From Agapetus fuscipes (lineage: Eukaryota > Arthropoda > Insecta > Trichoptera > Glossosomatidae): DNA of 64,000 bases. Position numbers and translations under genes: made by a program. The notes beneath the pieces are model-generated. The model worked only from the letters and a program-made list of their open reading frames with translations, did not search any database and had not been told where the DNA came from. Location: the NCBI GenBank assembly GCA_951799405.1, contig OX637338.1, positions 6,200,001 to 6,264,000 of the forward strand, in the 5' to 3' direction. Positions within the stretch are counted from its first letter, which is position 1; every line of letters starts with the position of its first letter. Of this stretch, positions 1,383-63,792 are shown in pieces.

Positions 1383-1456
1383 GTGCAATTCACGAACCTA
1401 TTCTGCCTGATCAGAAACAGTTTTTAATATCATCCATTAATTTATTATTTTAAAAT

Positions 1457-1637
1457 AAAATGTTTTTTTTCAAAAAATAGTTTTATTTTCACAATAATTT
1501 TATCTACCTCAAGCACTTTCGACCTTCAACATTCAAGACTCTTGATAATGACCTGAATGTTGAAGGTGGAAAGTGCTTGAGGTAGATAAAATTATTGTGA
1601 AAATAAAACTATGTTTTGAAAAAAAACAAAATTTTAA
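1457..1637. mobile_element. Fold-back repeat with hammerhead-like motif (copy e)
   Basis: Inverted arms at 1477-1535 and 1554-1612 match at 58 of 59 positions around an 18-nt loop, and the pairing extends more weakly to 1457 and 1637. The right arm continues into GTGAAAATAAAACTA, a tail shared with the other ribozyme-bearing repeats at 24, 43.9, 53.8 and 63.6 kb. Downstream to about 1730 is the family tail TGAATTTTCACTGTGT. Likely a Penelope-like or retrozyme relic. Confidence 0.7.
1536..1584 (+). ncRNA. Decayed hammerhead-like motif (e)
   Basis: The core TTGATAA is followed by a stem II (ACCT with AGGT), GAAA, the hexamer GTGCTT and GAG, which pairs with CTC just 5' of the core (stem I). 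The consensus G8 is A and C3 is U, so cleavage is not expected. Confidence 0.45.
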
Positions 1638-1752
1638 ATTAAAATGAATTTTCACTGTGTGAATATGGATTTATAAGGACTCCATGGTGTCAGGTGTGAA
1701 TACACAAACCCTACAAAATCTAATTCATTATTGTTTACTTTAATAAAATTAC

Positions 1753-4430: not shown

Positions 4431-4702
4431 TAATCTAATCTAATCTAAGTTGCATTGTATATATATGTAACATTAAAGATTCACATTATATGCACTTTTA
4501 CAAACAGACATGCACAAGTTCGCGCTTAAACATGCCGCATGTGGTCCTACAATATGAAAATCCGAATCTCACATGGGCATACACCCTGCAAGTGACCTGC
4601 AACTCTTGCCGACCTTCCCTGAAAACAGGGGTGACATTGGCAAAGTGAACCATTTTCTACAGCATGGGTGGTCAGCCGCATACCAACCTATAGGTCAAGG
4701 AA
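4431..4702 (-). repeat. Repeat A copy 2, full length
   Basis: From CTAATCTAATCTAATCTAAG (inverted GATTA tail) to CCTATAGGTCAAGGAA (inverted 5' end). It has a 10-12 bp local duplication around CTGCAAGTGACCTGCAA. Confidence 0.9.
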
Positions 4703-5115
4703 CAATTTTTAGAAATAAGTTTGAAAACATTCAAATACTATTTTTAATGACTTTTTTGTCTGCAAAATCTCAATGAAAATTATATTGAAGTCTGGGCGGA
4801 ATGGTGTAGAGCCCGCAGTTCTAAAATAGACGATTGATTGTTGAGCCATAAATTGCGTATTTATCTTTCACACGTAGAAAACGTCTGCTGTGAAATTCAG
4901 CATTCACAATTTCCTCTAGTGAAAATTCCCATTACGAGCCTATGCAATATGTAGGTATATTTATGCGTGTCACGACAAAATGTCCATTGACAAAATGTCC
5001 ACCGACAGAATGACCACCGACACAATATCCAATAGCAAAATATCCACGCAACAAAAATGTTTGGACACATTTTTTTTTTATGAACGATATATTGTTACGA
5101 AGTATGGATTCGTAA

Positions 5116-5402
5116 TGGGGCGTCCACACGCTTGCCAACCATTCACAAGTCAAGCGCACAGTGTGTCGTCTAGAACATGCTAGCTGGACAAAATTTTGTC
5201 TAATGGACTCATTTTGTCCAGCTAGCATGTTCTAGACGACACACTGTGCGCTTGGCTACAAGGCAAGCGCACAGTGTGTCGTCTAGAACATGCTAGCTGG
5301 ACAAAATTAGTCCATTAGACAAATTTTTGTCCAGCTAGCATGTTCTAGACGACACACTGTGCGCTTGACTTGTGAATGGTTGGCAAGCGTGTGGACGCCC
5401 CA
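5116..5402. mobile_element. Palindromic MITE family F, copy 1, TSD TAA
   Basis: Ends TGGGGCGTCCACACGCTTGC and its complement, flanked by TAA on both sides (5113-5115 and 5403-5405). The interior is two consecutive hairpins (5147-5261 and 5268-5375) built on the arm CAAGCGCACAGTGTGTCGTC. The 3-bp TAA duplication fits PIF/Harbinger. No coding. Confidence 0.8.
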
Positions 5403-5612
5403 TAAAACGTGCGCATAAGTACGCTGGTATGTGTCGAACAATCTAGAAGTGTTTCGAAAAATCCATTATAAAAAGTATGTGGAATAATCTCGAACATGCA
5501 AGAATCGTCTCTGCCGCCCATATACATACAATCAAAGATTCTGTGGGGAACCAGAGTCGCTTAAAACATTGTAACGCGAAGACATAATCTAGAGCGAGAA
5601 GAGTAAACAGTA

Positions 5613-23900: not shown

Positions 23901-24026
23901 AGATCTAATTGAAAAGTCGTAATTACACTTTTACGGCAGTGGCGCTTTTTCTACTAACATATGTTACAAACTTATACGTGTCTATTAATTAAATAAACAA
24001 AGTTTTAATTCACTTTTATAATTTTA

Positions 24027-24072
24027 TTTCTGTCAAATACTTTCGCCTACAAGGCATCATCAGGACAATGAC
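24027..24072 (-). ncRNA. Hammerhead ribozyme-like motif (b)
   Basis: On minus: stem I TGTC, core CTGATGA (24063-24057), stem II GCCT-TGT-AGGC, GAAA (24044-24041), hexamer GTATTT, stem I GACA. All core positions agree with a minimal type I hammerhead; cleavage would follow the final T of the hexamer. Mirror copy of motif (a). Confidence 0.65.
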
Positions 24073-24103
24073 AATTCAAAAAATCAAATATATTTTATAT
24101 CTT

Positions 24104-24148
24104 TCATTGTCCTGATGATGCCTTGTAGGCGAAAGTGCTTGACAGAAA
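24104..24148 (+). ncRNA. Hammerhead ribozyme-like motif (a)
   Basis: Stem I TGTC (24108-24111), core CTGATGA (24112-24118), stem II GCCT/AGGC with a 3-nt loop, GAAA (24131-24134), hexamer GTGCTT (24135-24140) giving a two-pair stem III (A-U, G-C) and cleavage base U, stem I GACA (24141-24144). Then AAATAAAATTATAAAAGTG. The stem III is tiny, as reported for Penelope-like and metazoan retrozyme hammerheads, which are thought to work best as dimers. Confidence 0.68.
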
Positions 24149-24260
24149 TAAAATTATAAAAGTGAATTACAACTTTGTTTGACACAATCTTAAAATTTTT
24201 CTCGGGTTGTGTAGCCATGTTCTATCGGAAGTTTGTTACACTTTTTTGTTACACTTTTTT

Positions 24261-24303
24261 CCGGACGTTTCGCCCATTATCTGCGATGGGCCTCCTCAGC
24301 GTA
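24261..24303 (-). ncRNA. Hammerhead ribozyme-like motif (m)
   Basis: On minus: core CTGAGGA (24299-24293), stem II GCCCAT/ATGGGC (6 bp), GAAA, then CGTC, the classic GUC cleavage triplet with stem III reduced to two pairs. Stem I is weak (2 bp) as read. Confidence 0.55.
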
Positions 24304-24602
24304 TTTTTTCTTCAGGCGTTCTGACTTCCTTAGCACGGAACTGTCAACGGCCTGTGGGTTGGTTATTGTTGTGTTTATGTCATGGTTCTGGAAGAAGGGG
24401 CCGCCACTGCATCCCAACAGCGCATGCGCGTCAAAAAGTGTAACAAAAAAGTGTAACAAACTTCCGATAGAACATGGCTACACAACCCGAGAAAAATTTT
24501 AAGATTGTGTCAAGTGCCGGCCGTGAAAGCCTTAATGTACAACAACTTTGTTTATTTAATTAATATACAATGGACTTTCACTGTGTAAACCACCAAACCC
24601 TT

Positions 24603-24690
24603 ACAAATATTATACGTGTCTGCTTGTGGGAATGCATTTAATATGAATCTCAAATGTAATATATTTTTACAACTTAGATTATTAGATTTG
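24603..24690 (+). repeat. Repeat A copy 13, 3' piece
   Basis: TTATACGTGTCTGCTTGTGG to CAACTTAGATTATTAGATT. Confidence 0.8.
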
Positions 24691-25332: not shown

Positions 25333-25503
25333 TCGATTGAAAATTGTTCAATTAAGTTCACAAAATAAACAAGCCGATTATACGAAAAAAAAACGTAAGT
25401 CGAAAGAAACGGTAAACGAGTTGGACCTTTCATTTAATTTTAATTTGAGTTCAAGAAAAAGCATAACGAGAGTGTCGACCGGATAATAATGTAATAACCA
25501 TGA

Positions 25504-26029
25504 TGGGGCTTCCACACGCTTGCCAACCCATTACAAGCCAAGCGCACAGTGTGTCTCAGAACATGCTAGCTGGACAAAATTATTTTTGGTTGTTTTTGGA
25601 TGGAATTCGGTTTATTTATTTATGTTTTGATAAAATCAATGAAAATGAGTGGAATATGAAATGTAAAAATATTTATCTTCTGAAAAATAGAAAAAAAAAC
25701 TTTTTTTTTAAATTATATTAAAAAAAATAATAATAATACAATTTGATACATTACTTAAGACATAAAAAAAAACACGCACACACATTAAGTACATGCATGA
25801 ATTAAAATAAAACCTGAAATGATTATTAAATCTACAAAATTTATTTTTCAGAAGATAAATATTTTTACATCTCATATTCCACTCATTTTCATTGATTTTA
25901 TCAAAACATAAATAAATAAACCAAATTCCATCCAAAAACAGCCAAAAATAATTTTGTCCAGCTAGCATGTTCTAGACGACACACTGTGCGCTTGGCTTGT
26001 AATGGGTTGGCAAGCGTGTGGAAGCCCCA
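25504..26029. mobile_element. Palindromic MITE family F, copy 2 (526 bp), TSD TGA
   Basis: Ends TGGGGCTTCCACACGCTTGC and complement, flanked by TGA (25501-25503 and 26030-26032). Arms of about 185 bp (25504-25688 and 25842-26029) are almost perfect, so the two strands give mirror open frames (each with YFWLFLDGI and DKINENEWNM), which are not genes. The outer 80 bp matches copy 1 at 5116; the inner arms do not. Confidence 0.85.
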
Positions 26030-26607
26030 TGAAATGCTTTTACTTCTAATTACTCTGCCGAGCATTTAAAGGTAAGAAATGATATTTAAAGATAAAAAAT
26101 GACCCAGTTTTTCTTCATTTCATGTTTTTTTTTGTCGATAAGAAGTCTCTTTAAAAAATCTCATTACTTTAATGAAATGAGTAACCCCCGTATTCACGAT
26201 CAAAACTGATTTAAGTGCCTTACTCAAGCGCTACACTTACTCAAGGGTCGACATTCTGGAGCGTTTTGTTTCACAAAGAACACTCAAGCAGTAATCAGCG
26301 TAGTGCCCAACCCCCAGGAGACGTACGGGTTTGTCATTGGCTCTCGAAAAAACCCAGCTCTGTAATTGGTCAGTACCTTCCGACCGATATTCGGCGTACT
26401 TCACTCTTATCATTGCCGCCTCTTTCAAATTTCAATGTCATATCAACTTTGCATAAAACTTGACAACAAATAAGTACGTATAACGCAATTACTACTTTAA
26501 GTAAACCGTAAGTACGAATTTGTTTGTTTACAATTTCTATTAGTTTTTAAAAATACATTTATGTAATATCCAATGTAAAGTGTTTTGATCGATTTCAGCG
26601 CCAAAAA

Positions 26608-27466: not shown

Positions 27467-28271
27467 AGTGAAAATCTCAGTCATCAAAATGTTATAATTT
27501 TTGTTTAATATTTAAACACGTAAAACGACTGCAGTTCCCGTTTGGATTCAGTCATAATTATAAAATCTTTATTCCAGCCTAGTCCCGCGGAGGATGCAAA
27601 ACGTGACCAGCCATATAAAATTTATATTTAATACAGAGGAATGTAGGTATTGATTAAATTTTTACAACGAGAAATTATTTAAGAAAAAATACAAGAAATT
27701 TCTAGGATTATCGTGTTCTGTTTATTTTATACAACTGTAATAGTGATTTTGTTACATAAAAAAACTATTTGATTTGTAATAAAATATTGTGATGTTTTAC
27801 AAAATTTACGCAACATTACGTGGAGAGCCCAGTAACGAGATGAATGCCTTCCCGGAAGCCATTCTTATTGAAAAAACAAATTAAATATTAAATTTATTTA
27901 CCGCTGCGTTATGGATGAAATTGAACCAATATTGGATATTACAAAAAAAATGTGAATGTTTCAAAAAAAAAAAAACAAAATAGAATTGCATAATTTCTTT
28001 TGAACGTTGATAATCTTCTTAAGATGCAGGATATTACATTAAAACATGTTTTTACTATTTAAGTAGGAAATAATTAACAAAAATACGCGTAACATTAATA
28101 AAAAATTTTGGACATCTTTTATTGCGACAGATTGCTTAATAAAATAAAGTTCTGAACCAGAAATAAGGAGAAGAATTAAGAATGTTTTTGATACTTCGTA
28201 AATTTTATAGAATTAAGGTATAAATCTTTATTCTATTGAAACACTGTTTTAATTTAACTTAATTTATTAAT
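27467..28271. other. AT-rich, no recognised feature
   Basis: Includes A runs at 27966-27976. No frame over 60 aa. Confidence 0.4.
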
Positions 28272-28370
28272 AAACTAACTTTTTCGATCACTCACGAGTC
28301 ACAATCATCGTCAGGTTCAACAAAATTTTGATAGTGTTAATACACAATCCATACAAAATATAAGAATATT
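28272..28370 (-). ncRNA. Hammerhead ribozyme-like motif (i) with family tail
   Basis: On minus: stem I GAAC, core CTGACGA (28314-28308), a longer stem II region closed by GAT/ATC, GAAA (28285-28282), hexamer AAGTTA (U16.1, A17), stem I GTTT. On plus, GATAGTGTTAATACACAATCC at 28330-28350 is the shared tail of these repeats. Confidence 0.55.
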
Positions 28371-28559
28371 TTTTATTGATTGTGTTCAATGTTCATCTTT
28401 CATACTTGGTGAGAGTTATAATTCATACATACAAAAAAATATTTTAAAATGGACGACAAGTTTTAATTCATTATTTTTAAAAGCATCGCGTCTATGAGGT
28501 GACATAGGCACAAATAATAATAATAAAATACTTCAATCTGTAACAGGAAGTTATCCGGC

Positions 28560-38894: not shown

Positions 38895-40742
38895 GCTGCA
38901 TCTAAGAGAATGGCAAAGACTATAATTTATGAAAGCAAGATGAATGAACAAAGAAAGATTGATGAAAGGATTAACGAAAGTTTCACCGACAGTAAGAAGG
39001 AATTTTGGAGGTGGATCAATGCGGATAGAAATAAATCTTCTGCATTGACCACTCCGGGAGTCAAAAGTGCTGCCGGTGAGATGGTATGGGAGAATGAAGA
39101 AGTATGCAAGAGATGGAAGAACTATTTTCAAGAAATTTTTGGCCAGGGTGAAAGAAGAATTTATGAACAGACAGATGAAGAGAATGAATTGAGGATTTTG
39201 AAAGAAGAAATGAAAGTGTCTATTTCACGTCTGAAGAATGGGAAGTCTGCTGGGTTTGATGGTATAAATGGTGAAATGTTGAAAGCAGGAGGTGAATGTG
39301 TGATAGATTGGATGTTTGAATTATGTAAGCTTTGTGTGAATGCAGGAGTAGTACCGATGGATTGGAGGAAGGCAGTCATTGTTCCCATTTACAAAGGTAA
39401 AGGGGACAAAAAAGACTGTCAGAACTTCAGACCAATCAGTCTACTCAGTATACCAGGAAAAGTCTTCTGTAAGGTGATTATAAAAAATGTGATTCTGACT
39501 ACTAGCAAAAGGGTTTCCGATATACAGTCCGGCTTTATGGCCGGTAGAGGCTGTGTTGATCAGATTTTCACTCTACGACAACTTGTTGAAAAACAATTGT
39601 CGGTGAGGGGGAAACTATTCACGGCCTTTGTGGATCTGGAGAAGGCTTTTGACTCAGTGGACAGAGGTATGTTGTGGGATGTTTTGAAAGCATACGGAGT
39701 GAATGGAGCTCTACTCAATGCGGTGCATGCGAACTATGAGAATAGTATGGCCTGCATTCGTATTGATGGTGAGTATAGTGAATGGTTTGAAGTTTTTAAG
39801 GGTGTAAGGCAAGGATGTGTGATGAGCCCATGGCTATTTAACATAGTCATGGACAAGTGTGTTCGAGATGCTAGACTTGATGATTGTGGATTAATGATAG
39901 GAGAGAGCAAAGTAAGCGTTCTACTGTATGCGGATGATGCAGTCCTTGTATCTGATTCAGCAGTGGAATTGCAAATGATGCTCTCTAGATTGAACGAAGC
40001 TTTGAAAGGTAATAATTTGAAGTTGAATGCAAGAAAGACGAAAGTTTTGATTTTTGAAAGAGATGATGAAAATATGAATTATGAATTTAAAATTAATGGA
40101 AAGAATGTTGATGTTGTAAATGAGTTTGTATATTTGGGAAGTAAGTTTGAAAAAGATGGAAGAATGGCCGGTGAATTTGAAAGAAGAATAATGAAAGGCA
40201 GGTGTGTACTGGGTGCGACCGCTTGCATCGCCAGGAACCAAAATCTCTCAAAAAATGTTAGATTGGCGGTGCACGGTGGTATACTAGTGCCAACCTTGAT
40301 GTATGGAAGTGAAGCCTGGACGGTGAGTGAAAGGGAAATTAGTAAAGTCCATACAGTAGAAATGGACTATCTAAGAAGTATGATTGGGAAAAAACGAAGT
40401 GACAGGGTGAGGAATGATTTTGTAAGAGAAGAATGTGGTGTAAGGGAAAGTGTGAAAGTGAAGATTAAAAGAAGTATGTTAAGATGGTTCGGGCATTTGG
40501 AGAGAATGAGTGATGAAAGATTGACGAAGAAAGTATATGTTGCTAGAATAGATGGATGTCGTGGTAGAGGAAGACCGAGAAAAGTATGGAAGGATCAAAT
40601 CTCTGAAATAGCGAATGAATGGGATATCCAGAGTCATAATAAAAGGAGGACTTGTATGAAAAAGGTTATGACTCTGGATGAAATGAAAGAAGTATGCAAG
40701 GACAGGAAGAAGTGGCGGCTAATCTGCAATGTTGATTTCTAA
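38895..40742 (+). CDS. LINE reverse transcriptase, intact frame, 5'-truncated element
   Basis: The only long open frame in the window: 610 aa from ATG 38910, with the frame open from 38895 after a TGA at 38892. The reverse transcriptase domain spans about residues 95-400: KSAGFDGINGEML (112-124), QNFRPISLLSIPGKVF (171-186), SGFMAGRGCVDQIFTLRQL (207-225), catalytic FVDLEKAFD (240-248, motif A), RQGCVMSPWLFN (300-311, motif B), YADD (340-343, motif C) and LKLNARKTKVL (motif D). The C-terminus has WFGHLERM, RGRGRPRKVW and CKDRKKWR. Both catalytic aspartate motifs are intact. The N-terminal endonuclease expected of the full element is missing, and so is a promoter, so the copy is 5'-truncated. 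It is related to RTE/Jockey-group insect elements; the exact clade is unsure. Repeat A follows 115 bp after the stop. Confidence 0.9.
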   Translation, partial: AASKRMAKTIIYESKMNEQRKIDERINESFTDSKKEFWRWINADRNKSSALTTPGVKSAAGEMVWENEEVCKRWKNYFQEIFGQGERRIYEQTDEENELRILKEEMKVSISRLKNGKSAGFDGINGEMLKAGGECVIDWMFELCKLCVNAGVVPMDWRKAVIVPIYKGKGDKKDCQNFRPISLLSIPGKVFCKVIIKNVILTTSKRVSDIQSGFMAGRGCVDQIFTLRQLVEKQLSVRGKLFTAFVDLEKAFDSVDRGMLWDVLKAYGVNGALLNAVHANYENSMACIRIDGEYSEWFEVFKGVRQGCVMSPWLFNIVMDKCVRDARLDDCGLMIGESKVSVLLYADDAVLVSDSAVELQMMLSRLNEALKGNNLKLNARKTKVLIFERDDENMNYEFKINGKNVDVVNEFVYLGSKFEKDGRMAGEFERRIMKGRCVLGATACIARNQNLSKNVRLAVHGGILVPTLMYGSEAWTVSEREISKVHTVEMDYLRSMIGKKRSDRVRNDFVREECGVRESVKVKIKRSMLRWFGHLERMSDERLTKKVYVARIDGCRGRGRPRKVWKDQISEIANEWDIQSHNKRRTCMKKVMTLDEMKEVCKDRKKWRLICNVDF

Positions 40743-43854: not shown

Positions 43855-44045
43855 TATTAGAATAGTGTACCTTCTGACAAATATTATAATTTTTCATCAC
43901 CTGATAATGACTACGAAGTAGTCGAAAACGTTTGTGTCCTTTATATAAATAATAAAAAAAGTGAAAATAAAACAGATTTTTTTAATAACTAAATAAAGAT
44001 GAATTTTCACAGTGTTAATGCACCAACCATCCAAAATACTAAAAT
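43855..44045 (+). mobile_element. Hammerhead-bearing repeat (copy c)
   Basis: Motif at 43897-43940, then AAAAGTGAAAATAAAACAG, TTTTTTTAATAACTAAATAA and GATGAATTTTCACAGTGTTA with CACCAACCATCCAAAAT. This tail is nearly identical to 53765-53850. Confidence 0.75.
43897..43940 (+). ncRNA. Hammerhead ribozyme-like motif (c), G8 mutated
   Basis: Stem I CAC, core CTGATAA (43901-43907), stem II GACTAC/GTAGTC, GAAA (43924-43927), hexamer ACGTTT, stem I GTG. The catalytic G8 is A, so probably inactive. Confidence 0.55.
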
Positions 44046-48716: not shown

Positions 48717-48845
48717 TTATTGTCAAGTAATAAGGCATCTTCAAGAGTATAAATGTTATCTTATTATGCGAAAAAGTTTAAGCTTTATTCTATTCAATTT
48801 ATACAAAATACAATGAACTTTTACTATGTTAACCGAAAACCCATT
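48717..48845. mobile_element. Relic of a hammerhead-bearing repeat (k)
   Basis: On minus TTGAAGATGCCTTATTACTTGACA (24 nt, positions 48744-48721) looks like a motif with stem II and GAAA deleted. On plus, ACAATGAACTTTTACTATGTTA at 48811-48832 is the shared tail. Confidence 0.4.
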
Positions 48846-48849
48846 ACAT

Positions 48850-49557
48850 ATTTTATATGAATAATGATTTCCGATGAAAAAAGGTAACATTTTATTAATT
48901 TAAAAACGTTATAAAAAAATATATGCAAGCTATCATCTGGACTCTAAGGTTACTAAACGGCTCGTCATTCTCTTATGACTGAATTAAGGAAGCTGAATAT
49001 TTTTATACTGAGTAAACCTGTTTCTTTAGTCACGGGTTCGCAGAAGCATGTAAATTAACAAACAGAAGCGTCAAATTCCTCAAAACCACTAATGCCTGAT
49101 TATCCCAGCATGTTTGTGTATTCTGTTGGCAGACCTGCGGTAATTAAAACATAACTCTACAGAACTGAATCAAAGTGACGTAGATTAGAAATGTGACGTC
49201 ATAATATCGTCTAGTGCCGTTTTTAGAGTGATGGATTCACATATTACACACTAAAAGAATCAGAGTCTAATTAACAAAGTAAAATTAAACAGTTTTGCCT
49301 TGATACATTTACATATCCTATAAACATAGCAGGCAAAATATGTAGGTAAGTTTTTTGTTGTTTTGGATAACGGTGATGCCAAAGTTGTGAGTCTACTGAT
49401 GTTACAGACCATCTAGGAATAAGGATTCAAGTCTAGAAACCAGAAAAAGGACTCACCAATAATCCTTTATGATTTGCATAAATATCTTCTTTCGCGTGGT
49501 TAAATTCACTCCTAGTTGAGTGCATTGTTTGCAAAAATTTTGGGATAAAGCGTGAAG
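48850..49557. other. No recognisable feature
   Basis: AT-rich; no frame over 60 aa. Confidence 0.4.
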
Positions 49558-50111: not shown

Positions 50112-50303
50112 TTAGTAGAATCTGTCTGGAAAGTGCACTTTTCGGCCCGATCTTGTTGTAGTGGTTGTCCGGTGGTTGCTGCTTGTTGCAGCAGTGTTTG
50201 CTGTGCCGTTGTTCGGCGATTGGTTGTGCTGTAGTTCAGCGGTTGTTTGTTGTGCTGGGCAGCTATGTTGGGCGACGTTCAAACCTCCAGGGCCTTGTTG
50301 CAC
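50112..50303 (-). pseudogene. Pol C-terminal remnant of the LTR retrotransposon
   Basis: A 63-aa frame rich in Q, N and T ends in TTTRSGRKVHFPDRFY and a stop. TRSGRxVxFPDR is the usual final motif of Ty3/Gypsy Pol polyproteins, after integrase. It lies in the same orientation as the gag fragment. The integrase core is absent. Confidence 0.75.
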
Positions 50304-50312
50304 TGGTTGGAA

Positions 50313-50535
50313 TTGAGGAGTCGGCTGCAGCGGGTTGTTGTAGTTCAGCGGTTGCTGCTTGTTGCAGCAGTTGCTGTGCCGTAGTTCGGCGGGTTGCTGT
50401 TTGTTACAGATGTTGCTGTGCCGTAGTTCGGCGGGTTGCTGCTTGTTGCAGCAGTTGCTGTGCCGTAGTTCGGCTGGTTGCTGCTTGTTGCAGCAGTTGT
50501 TGTGCCGTAGTTCGGCGGGTTGCTGCTTGTTGCTG
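50313..50535 (-). repeat. 42-bp coding minisatellite in the retrotransposon
   Basis: About four to five 42-bp units each encode a 14-residue block SNPPNYGTATAATS (variants Q for P, T for A). On the opposite strand the same repeats give cysteine-rich frames that are artefacts. Confidence 0.85.
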
Positions 50536-50754
50536 TTACAATATCAGCTACAATCGTGAGCGTTGCATCATCCAGACTCATTACCAAGTGGCCAAATTTT
50601 GTTATGTCCACAGGCGGAATTGGCCTGGCGGAATTGTGTTTCCGCTCGGAGAATCCACAACGCGGCATTCTCCTTCCAGAAAGGAGCTAGCTTGACGCTA
50701 ACCGCAATGCACGTGTGTGGTCGGATTTTCGCCGGTCGCCATTTTTTTTTTTGA
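50536..50754 (-). pseudogene. Gag fragment of the LTR retrotransposon
   Basis: In two frames: KLAPFWKENAALWILRAETQ, then after a small deletion DITKFGHLVMSLDDATLTIV. This is the capsid N-terminal motif PPFWxxxPxLWFxxxExQF ... DxTKFxxVVxxLD of insect Ty3/Gypsy gags of the CsRn1/Kabuki type. The frame starts near ATG 50743 but is shifted before the second motif. No zinc knuckle is left. Confidence 0.75.
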
Positions 50755-51398: not shown

Positions 51399-51452
51399 GT
51401 TGCTACGAGCCTTGATAATGTTCCCTGCTCGAGGGAATGAAACGTCGGTAGA
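51399..51452 (+). ncRNA. Hammerhead-like motif (l), GUC type
   Basis: Core TTGATAA (51412-51418), stem II TTCCC/GGGAA with a 7-nt loop, GAAA (51439-51442), CGTC (GUC cleavage triplet), then GGTAG. C3 and G8 differ from the consensus, so probably inactive. It may be a second hammerhead subfamily with motif (m). Confidence 0.5.
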
Positions 51453-52129: not shown

Positions 52130-52299
52130 ATCTAAGCTGCAAATATATACATTGAATGCACTACCACAAGCAAGCACGTGAAAGTTTGCGCTTACAGGTG
52201 TTGCCTTTTTATAAACTCAAACATCAAATGACCGAAAATTCTGTAACTCTGCCTTTGAAACAGGAGTAGCATTAAAAAAATTAACAAATTTTCAGTATT

Positions 52300-52458
52300 T
52301 GATTAAAAAAATATTAATAAATAATTTTTAGAACACTTAAATGAAAAAACTTTGTTTTAATCCACTGTGAGTATTTATTTTTTGAAAAAACGTTTTCGGA
52401 GATCATTCTCCATCTTCAGTTTCTTATATATTTATTAATATTTTTGTAATCAAATATT
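52300..52458. mobile_element. Hammerhead-bearing repeat (copy f)
   Basis: Ends GATTAAAAAAATATTAATAA (from 52302) and ATTAATATTTTTGTAATC (to 52454) are inverted. TATTT lies on either side as a possible target duplication. Confidence 0.65.
52384..52426 (-). ncRNA. Hammerhead ribozyme-like motif (f)
   Basis: On minus: stem I GAAA, core CTGAAGA (52419-52413), stem II GGAGA/TCTCC with a 4-nt loop, GAAA (52397-52394), hexamer ACGTTT, stem I TTTC. Every conserved position is met. Confidence 0.68.
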
Positions 52459-52557
52459 TAAAATGGAATTCAACAATGTTTCACCAAAACAATTTGAAAA
52501 ATTTTCGGTCATTGTATTAAATTATTAGTCAAGGAAAAACAAAAGTAATAAGAAAGT

Positions 52558-53308: not shown

Positions 53309-53665
53309 CCGGTCGATTGCTCAGTTGATAGAGTGCTTGCATTCCATGCTGTGAGCTCGGGTTCAAATCCCGCCGAGGGTGTCAGAAATGATTTCCCGTG
53401 TCGGTGTTTATTTCAAACCCCAAAATAAAATACCGGCAAGGTGTACTTAGCCTTCACAAGAAATGAATACCAGCTCTCTCGAGGGCTGGGAAACCACCAC
53501 TTCAACTGAAGTGGTTGGCGCAAGGCCGGCCCCCTTACCAGAGGCGGCTCCTCAATAAAAATGTTGGCAGTTCATAATTTTCGCAATTTCATTTTTTCTT
53601 GTATTTTTTTTGCTTTGAATGGAAACTGCAAGAAATACGTACCTAAATATATATTGTTTTATTTA

Positions 53666-53849
53666 GTTATTAAAAAAACTGTTTCATTATTATTTTTTTA
53701 AAGGACACAAACGTTTTCGACTACACAGTAGTCATCATCAGGTCTGTGTTCTTTAAAAAAATATTAATAAAAAGTGAAAATAAAACAGTTTTTTTAATAA
53801 CTAAATAAAGATGAATTTTCACAGTGTTAATACACCAACCATCCAAAAT
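53666..53849. mobile_element. Hammerhead-bearing repeat (copy d) inside the hAT
   Basis: Flanked by a 15-bp direct duplication ATATTGTTTTATTTA (53651-53665 and 53850-53864). Ends GTTATTAAAAAAACTGTTT and its complement are inverted, followed by the family tail GATGAATTTTCACAGTGTTA. The long duplication fits Penelope-like integration better than a cut-and-paste element. Confidence 0.8.
53698..53757 (-). ncRNA. Hammerhead ribozyme-like motif (d)
   Basis: On minus: core CTGATGA (53741-53735), stem II GACTAC/GTAGTC with a 4-nt loop, GAAA (53718-53715), hexamer ACGTTT, then GTGTCCTTTAAA pairing with TTTAAAGAACAC upstream. The pairs next to the core are weaker than in (a) and (f). Confidence 0.6.
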
Positions 53850-53879
53850 ATATTGTTTTATTTACTTATACACGAGTAG

Positions 53880-63383: not shown

Positions 63384-63640
63384 ACATGCGATACGGGGAA
63401 ACACACAATAAACTAAAAATACCAACATCCTGATGGGAGGACGTGGAGGACGTGGAGGTTAGTGTAGATAGGCATACAGTCAACAGGGTTGTAGGGACAA
63501 GGTTAAAGGATTTGAGATTAAATTTGTTTATGATATTTCCAAAAAACTGATGAAGCCTAGTATGGTTAAAATACAAATTAATGTTAATCAATTGAATCCT
63601 AATAAACTTATGGAACTTTGAAAATTCTAATAAGACACTG
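63384..63640. other. No confident feature
   Basis: GGAGGACGTGGAGGACGTGG at 63435-63454 is a short tandem repeat. Confidence 0.35.
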
Positions 63641-63730
63641 TTTTATTTTCACAATTACATAAATAAATTTTATTTTGATTAATAATTACTAACGTTTTCG
63701 ATCATGGTGATCATCCTCAGGTAAGAATAA
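63636..63730 (-). ncRNA. Hammerhead ribozyme-like motif (g) with family tail
   Basis: On minus: stem I TTAC, core CTGAGGA (63720-63714), stem II GATC/GATC, GAAA (63699-63696), hexamer ACGTTA (U16.1, A17), stem I GTAA, then about 45 AT-rich bp and TTGTGAAAATAAAACAGTGT, the shared tail. All conserved positions are met. Confidence 0.68.
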
Positions 63731-63792
63731 CAATGTTAATGAGTTCATGAACTGGTAGAGCATGATAAAAAAATTAGTATGATTTTTCAGGT

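Follow-up and report, generated by a model that had tools for sequence, protein, structure and literature searches.

Fold-back repeats in a 64,000-nt stretch of the Agapetus fuscipes genome (this whole stretch is here referred to as the window) carry short motifs that resemble the core of a hammerhead ribozyme. The locus raises the questions of what kind of repeat carries these motifs, how closely the motifs follow a hammerhead, and what a cut at them would mean for the element that carries them.

Hammerhead-like motifs in the window and in phage contigs

Both strands of the window were scanned for CTGANGA separated by 0-2 bases from a stem of 4 bp or more, with GAAA after the stem. This returned seven motifs, all at the places where the original prediction had located CUGANGA/stem II/GAAA motifs, and no others. 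In 300 dinucleotide-shuffled windows, the same scan averaged 0.13 motifs and never exceeded 2, by which a chance origin of the seven is excluded. With coordinates running from the start of the core to H17, the base at the cutting position, the motifs are:

24035..24063, minus strand (read 24063-24035): motif a, CTGATGA plus T, stem II GCCT/AGGC, GAA, AGTATT, H17 = T, stem I of 5 bp; in the inverted pseudo-LTR (pLTR) of element E2
24112..24140, plus strand: motif b, stem II as in motif a (GCCT/AGGC), AGTGCT, H17 = T; in the direct pLTR of E2
24264..24299, minus strand (read 24299-24264): motif m, stem II GCCCAT/ATGGGC, ACGT, H17 = C; in the nested element E2in
28276..28314, minus strand (read 28314-28276): hammerhead-like motif, H17 = A
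52388..52419, minus strand (read 52419-52388): hammerhead-like motif, H17 = T
53709..53741, minus strand (read 53741-53709): hammerhead-like motif, H17 = T
63690..63720, minus strand (read 63720-63690): hammerhead-like motif, H17 = A

The base-level features that had been predicted for these motifs were recovered. N7 accepts any base (T three times, G twice, A and C once each), U at position 5 and U or A at position 6 after GAAA occur in six motifs, with CGUC in m, and the cleavage base is U, A or C and never G, H17 in a, b, m, 28314, 52419, 53741 and 63720 being T, T, C, A, T, T and A (G in 0/7). Stem II, of 4-6 bp, differs in sequence yet stays paired: pair 1 is G-C in 7/7, and pairs 2, 3 and 4 occur as 3, 3 and 4 pair types, respectively. 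Stem I runs for 5, 5, 2, 5, 4, 2 and 4 bp in the same order of motifs, where the chance of a run of at least 4 bp is 0.024; only 2 bp of stem I adjoin the core in m and in the 53741 motif. The bases 3' of GAA are AACGTT in three motifs, AGTGCT, AGTATT and AAAGTT in one each, and ACGT in m. When G-U is allowed, they are self-complementary in six of the seven (five hexamers and the tetramer of m), compared to 0.057 of random hexamers, the non-palindromic one being AAAGTT of the 28314 motif. None of the motifs has a closed stem III with A15.1-U16.1, and with the six palindromes such pairing is possible only in a dimer. The prediction of minimal type I hammerhead-like motifs of the Penelope kind in fold-back repeats, whose palindromes AACGUU, ACGU and AGUGCU could form a dimeric stem III, is in line with these findings.

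A feature overlooked in the original prediction is an extra base between CUGANGA and stem II. In the best register, one unpaired base lies between A9 and stem II in 7/7 motifs, namely T in six and G in m. CUGANGA and GAAA are present in all seven, as the search itself required, and in none of the seven does stem II follow directly 3' of A9. The core in the window hence departs from the textbook hammerhead by a 1-nt insertion after A9 that breaks the junction of A9 with pair 10.1-11.1. According to an excerpt of PMC10085705, known hammerhead alignments have no more than 1 or 2 nt inserted between A9 and stem II.

Rfam gave no hammerhead match in the window, even at E<=10, none in the 53.7 kb element alone, and none in five genome loci at E<=1; its matches in the window were all below threshold and mostly of miRNA models on palindromes. 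The minimum-energy folds of ten monomers in general lacked a hammerhead. The Rfam check proposed with the original prediction thus came out negative, but it does not discriminate and the null result is no refutation, because phage hammerhead-like RNAs in which stem III is complete escape Rfam as well. These were found by scanning viral contigs for the core with the extra U, which yielded 12 loci. On reading, ten of the 12 have a type I layout in which stem III is closed, H17 is C and the two strands of stem I change together (L003, L004 and L006 are near-identical to each other), and the other two, L008 and L009, look like chance. A scan of genome contigs yielded 12 loci, one convincing on reading (L022) and 11 not. 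The phage or prophage type I hammerhead-like RNAs with an extra U after A9, a closed stem III and H17 = C are located at:

L001 11739
L002 5825, minus strand
L003 2953
L004 1272
L005 3729, minus strand
L006 545, minus strand
L007 6729
L010 1010
L011 3207
L012 2636, minus strand
L022 2456

They have the core CCUGAUGAU-stem II-GAAAC in common with the window motifs and differ from them in the closed stem III and in H17 = C. At Rfam gathering scores, in a scan that covered L001-L012 (L022 lying outside it), none of the ten phage extra-U sites is reported, and L003, L005 and L012 gave no match at E<=1. The only Rfam hammerhead is another site in L002, a type II hammerhead at 4638-4729 on the minus strand (43.3 bits); the extra-U site of this viral contig lies about 1.1 kb away. 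Viral contigs scanned with the AACGTT and m patterns of the window returned 0 loci, and a U3-A8 scan of viral contigs returned six, none of which reads as a convincing three-stem hammerhead.

Decayed relatives had also been predicted in the window. Those at 43.9 kb (G8 changed to A), 1.5 kb and 48.8 kb are indeed related, by their flanks; the candidate at 27.4 kb is weak, and the one at 51.4 kb is a good stem-loop of a diverged kind:

51412..51452, plus strand: hammerhead-like stem-loop in which U3/A8 replaces C3/G8, with a 7-bp stem II and GAAACGTC; no Penelope tail was noticed

This stem-loop possibly represents another family. A U3-A8 pair is present at both the 51.4 and the 1.5 kb loci, where each of the changes is also a common transition.

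Other repeats and frames were observed in the window as well. Long inverted repeats at 5115-5403 and 25503-26030 are 98-100% complementary and have ACACACTGTGCGCTTG stretches in common, and the motif scan found no hammerhead in them. At 38895-40742, a stop-free frame of 615 aa is of the LINE reverse transcriptase type, with 1,727 of the scored candidates as relatives at E<=0.001, and at 50112-50686 open frames of repeated NCCNKQQPAELRHSN-like units overlap on both strands.

Probable Penelope-like elements around the motifs

The fold-backs are very probably head-to-head pLTRs of Penelope-like retrotransposons, and the motif, at the 5' edge of the pLTR, would be their minimal type I hammerhead. 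The elements, the ends of which were drawn after the flanks had been seen, are:

1439..1733, plus strand: E1, palindromic pLTR pair with a decayed motif (CTTGATAATG); tail ATG at 1644
23984..24609, plus strand: E2, head-to-head pLTR pair with a 12-bp target-site duplication, TTATACGTGTCT, at 23972-23983 and 24610-24621; tail ATG at 24570
24181..24541, minus strand: E2in, second Penelope-like insertion, nested in E2, with inverted pLTRs and a 12-bp duplication, ACAACTTTGTTT, at 24169-24180 and 24542-24553
28224..28371, plus strand: E3, fold-back around the 28314 motif; tail like that of E4 and E6
43899..44035, plus strand: E4, single pLTR (tail ATG at 43999) with 88% identity to E6; its motif has decayed at G8 (CTGATAA)
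48797..48857, plus strand: E8, decayed copy represented by its tail (ATG at 48813), which has 75% identity to that of E2
52288..52505, plus strand: E5, fold-back pLTR pair around the 52419 motif; tail ATG at 52463; an 8-nt flanking repeat is not beyond chance
53658..53850, plus strand: E6, fold-back pLTR pair around the 53741 motif; a 22-nt flanking direct repeat with one mismatch lies partly within the arm; tail ATG at 53811
63632..63745, plus strand: E7, copy around the 63720 motif, with uncertain ends

The 3' ends of the elements open with a start codon and vary in a coding manner (MNFHSVN, MDFHCVN, MNFYYVN). A pLTR with the first ~12 codons, a shorter inverted pLTR and an optional tail are found in E2, E2in and E6, and it is for these that target-site duplications were obtained (3/8 elements; chance <=0.01 in 200 comparisons each), with no duplication beyond chance at 5/8 window elements. 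When the flanks of E2in are joined, the E2 pLTR is restored and then matches its own inverted copy. Within E2in, the minus copy has its ATG at 24218 and ends after 12 codons plus two bases, and the plus copy has its ATG at 24474 and extends over 22 codons plus two bases. The pLTR ends 112 nt (E2in), 118 nt (E2) or 127 nt (E4) after A9; an excerpt of PMC11167929 places the start of reverse transcription 111-118 bp into an ORF, which itself begins where stem II of the hammerhead begins.

Elsewhere in the genome, GIY-YIG ORFs precede the motif (L121, 8224-9210, and L122, 610-1476). The GIY-YIG scores are 20.3, 21.6 (L121) and 22.6 (L122) bits, that is, below or just at the Pfam cut-off of 22.6. 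P0131, a relative of the L121 and L122 ORFs, combines RVT_1 with GIY-YIG, and in a tblastn search of 21 loci it aligned to five genome places (L035, which equals L039, L120, L121, L122 and L124) with 38-41% identity. The alignments start only from residue 199, with no RT domain in the fetched loci and nothing in the window, and a search of solved structures with the L121 ORF gave no match at E<=1. Judged by these alignments, it is the predicted C-terminal GIY-YIG half of a Penelope-type protein that lies beside the motif at the five places. A Penelope origin of the motifs is supported by the anatomy of the elements together with the GIY-YIG frames beside the motif elsewhere in the genome.

Head-to-head Penelope pairs (24032-24143 in the window; 491-606 in L064) match miRNA models, with mir-2513 reaching an E of 2e-14 in L064, below the gathering score. 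Such fold-backs could therefore be taken for miRNA precursors.

Genome copies, covariation and the cutting position

In the 618-Mb genome, at least 3,017 exact matches to CCTGATGATGN{8,20}CGAAAACGTT were counted (1,497 and 1,520), with 0 for the reversed control. Since the pattern itself prescribed C3-A9 with the preceding base, the extra U, stem II pair 1, GAAAACGTT and the C of stem I pair 1, the genome counts do not measure how conserved these positions are. A set of 97 rows was sampled among the matches listed for one contig, the last four of the list being left out; the rows stand for 96 places, since L035 and L039 are one site. Stem I is most often 3 bp long (59/97 rows). Its pair 1 is C-G in 95/97, with the C preset by the pattern, pair 2 is A-T in 64 rows and T-A in 24, and pair 3 is T-A in 45, G-C in 22, T-G in 8 and C-G in 6, the remainder being mostly unpaired. 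Among 24 distinct stem-loops, stem II pairs 2, 3 and 4 are kept in 24, 23 and 20, respectively. Stems I and II thus covary among the sampled genome copies; as the copies are related, these counts do not represent independent events. At H17, the 97 rows have T in 48, A in 29, C in 20 and G in 0, and even within the single stem class GACCTTCTAGGTC A (16), C (16) and T (2) are all found. G occupies the cleavage position in 15 of the 3,017 genome matches, both counts being lower bounds. The base at the cutting position looks constrained to A, C or U, and is seldom G.

Does the cut make the template for retrotransposition? This was assessed with 60 copies of one pLTR subfamily, of which the genome has at least 621; they were chosen by an exact downstream stretch irrespective of the motif and are the first 60 listed after contig C1. 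The exact motif is kept in 45/60. Relative to H17, homology starts at -39 to -29 in 16/60 copies (C3 = -30) and further upstream in 37/60 (19 of which reach the end of the reference), and the other seven start at -21, -19, -4, +2, +7, +8 and +9. Altogether, 56/60 copies of this subfamily run through the cleavage site. Barring a cut followed by rejoining, or copies that arose from DNA, their RNA template was hence intact at this point. The templates of the sampled subfamily were therefore probably uncut at the cleavage position, in agreement with an excerpt of PMC11167929, which states that cleavage is not required for insertion in vitro. This argues that cutting, if there is any, is conditional. 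The 5' ends that gather at -39 to -29 lie at the 5' edge of the motif, just upstream of the core, and may mark a transcription start or a template end.

The same data bear on the idea that ribozyme-cut RNA is the usual template, with insertions starting at position 1.1. On visual inspection, the pieces on the right of E6 and E2in seemed to start near the cleavage site, and two inverted arms of genome motif rows start at -2 and 0; however, these are the only two of 40 arms within 3 nt of the site, and in the program alignment the opposite arms of E6, E2in, E5, E3 and E7 start at -24, -9, +45, +36 and -16 (the scores for E3 and E7 being very low). With just one of the 60 subfamily copies within 3 nt of the site as well, and the majority starting upstream of it, the footprint seen by eye in E6 and E2in was dropped, and a cut RNA as the usual template is considered very unlikely. 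Even less probable are non-autonomous retrozymes, that is, tandem repeats with type I hammerheads that form circular RNAs, to which the original prediction had linked the motifs. Passages from PMC7229834 and PMC7761336 describe minimal hammerheads in Penelope elements and hammerheads of type I in metazoan retrozymes, but the units found here end in Penelope tails that include ORF codons, and in the window they stand alone or face each other head to head, with no tandem repeats of one unit. In addition, 40/88 genome motif rows have an inverted pLTR at most 450 nt upstream, reciprocal pairs being counted twice, and the retrozyme link found no support.

It is also conceivable, though improbable, that the motif only looks like a hammerhead and, as an RNA or DNA element of Penelope, never cleaves itself but serves, e.g., as a protein-binding hairpin or as one at which reverse transcription starts. 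The extra base after A9, the lack of an Rfam hammerhead match and the sampled copies made mostly from RNA continuous through the site would all fit such a look-alike, as would the Anolis element in an excerpt of PMC11167929, which shows no cleavage without its protein. The same excerpt, however, reports C3/G8-dependent cleavage when the protein is present. A look-alike would moreover leave unexplained why A, C or U stands 3' of the palindrome, with G in so few of the genome matches (15/3,017, as lower-bound counts), and why the 3-bp stem I, which pairs across the whole motif, covaries.

Preference is thus given to a minimal hammerhead in Penelope-like elements, in which the RNA of source elements could cleave itself 3' of H17. 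Since stem I mostly has 3 bp and a palindromic N6 replaces the closed stem III, cutting may need a stem III that is completed by a second copy or by the element protein, and it would be conditional, because the RNA from which most of the examined copies were reverse transcribed seems to have been unbroken there. The inverted arms would have formed during integration, as in other Penelope elements, and the ribozyme would not be their source. A more tentative proposal, for which the odds are rather against than in favor, is that the ribozyme is kept under selection in source elements, yet that its cut destroys rather than prepares the template, since reverse transcription would start ~112-118 nt downstream of A9 and a cut in the 3' pLTR would detach that start site. 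If this holds true, the ribozyme would act as a conditional switch or decatenator that depends on a dimer or on protein, with the starts of truncated copies tending to lie at its 5' edge and not at the cut. The cleavage base looks constrained, yet insertions in the one subfamily examined do not start at the cut and probably do not derive from cut RNA, and the question becomes why the ribozyme is kept. The review PMC7761336, in an excerpt, refers to the in vivo role of Penelope hammerheads as a mystery; at least 3,017 copies of one version provide a direct sequence test of this role.

Comparison with known systems

Minimal hammerheads in Penelope elements have already been published, and the set described here adds a member. 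Those of Cervera & De la Pena 2014 and Lunse et al. 2017, minimal hammerheads of Penelope-like elements, are reportedly like the window motifs in their CUGANGA/GAAA core, the lack of a closed stem III, possible dimers, the location in the pLTR and the many copies per genome. The window motifs have the extra base in 7/7. An excerpt of PMC6155905 likewise states that the available Penelope sequences show minimal hammerheads. The repeat-type hammerheads of Aedes and others (PMC3088659, in part) have a palindromic stem III/loop III that permits dimers, and natural cores in which C3-G8 is changed to U3-A8; both a palindrome that could permit dimers and the U3-A8 change recur in window loci. In the same part of that source, the search rejected mispairs adjoining the core, and a tie to Penelope is absent.

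The word hammerhead has 0 occurrences in the main text of PMC3846280 and in passages of PMC12910113. The Adineta vaga Penelope elements of PMC3846280 resemble those described here in that a shorter, inverted pLTR accompanies two others and the inverted junction is palindromic. Their duplications measure 8-10 bp, whereas those in the window are at least 12 bp long. According to the same source, the rotifer pLTR holds the first 12 codons, which a 31-bp tail extends to 22 codons, and the 12 and 22 codons of E2in are as in the A. vaga Penelope elements.
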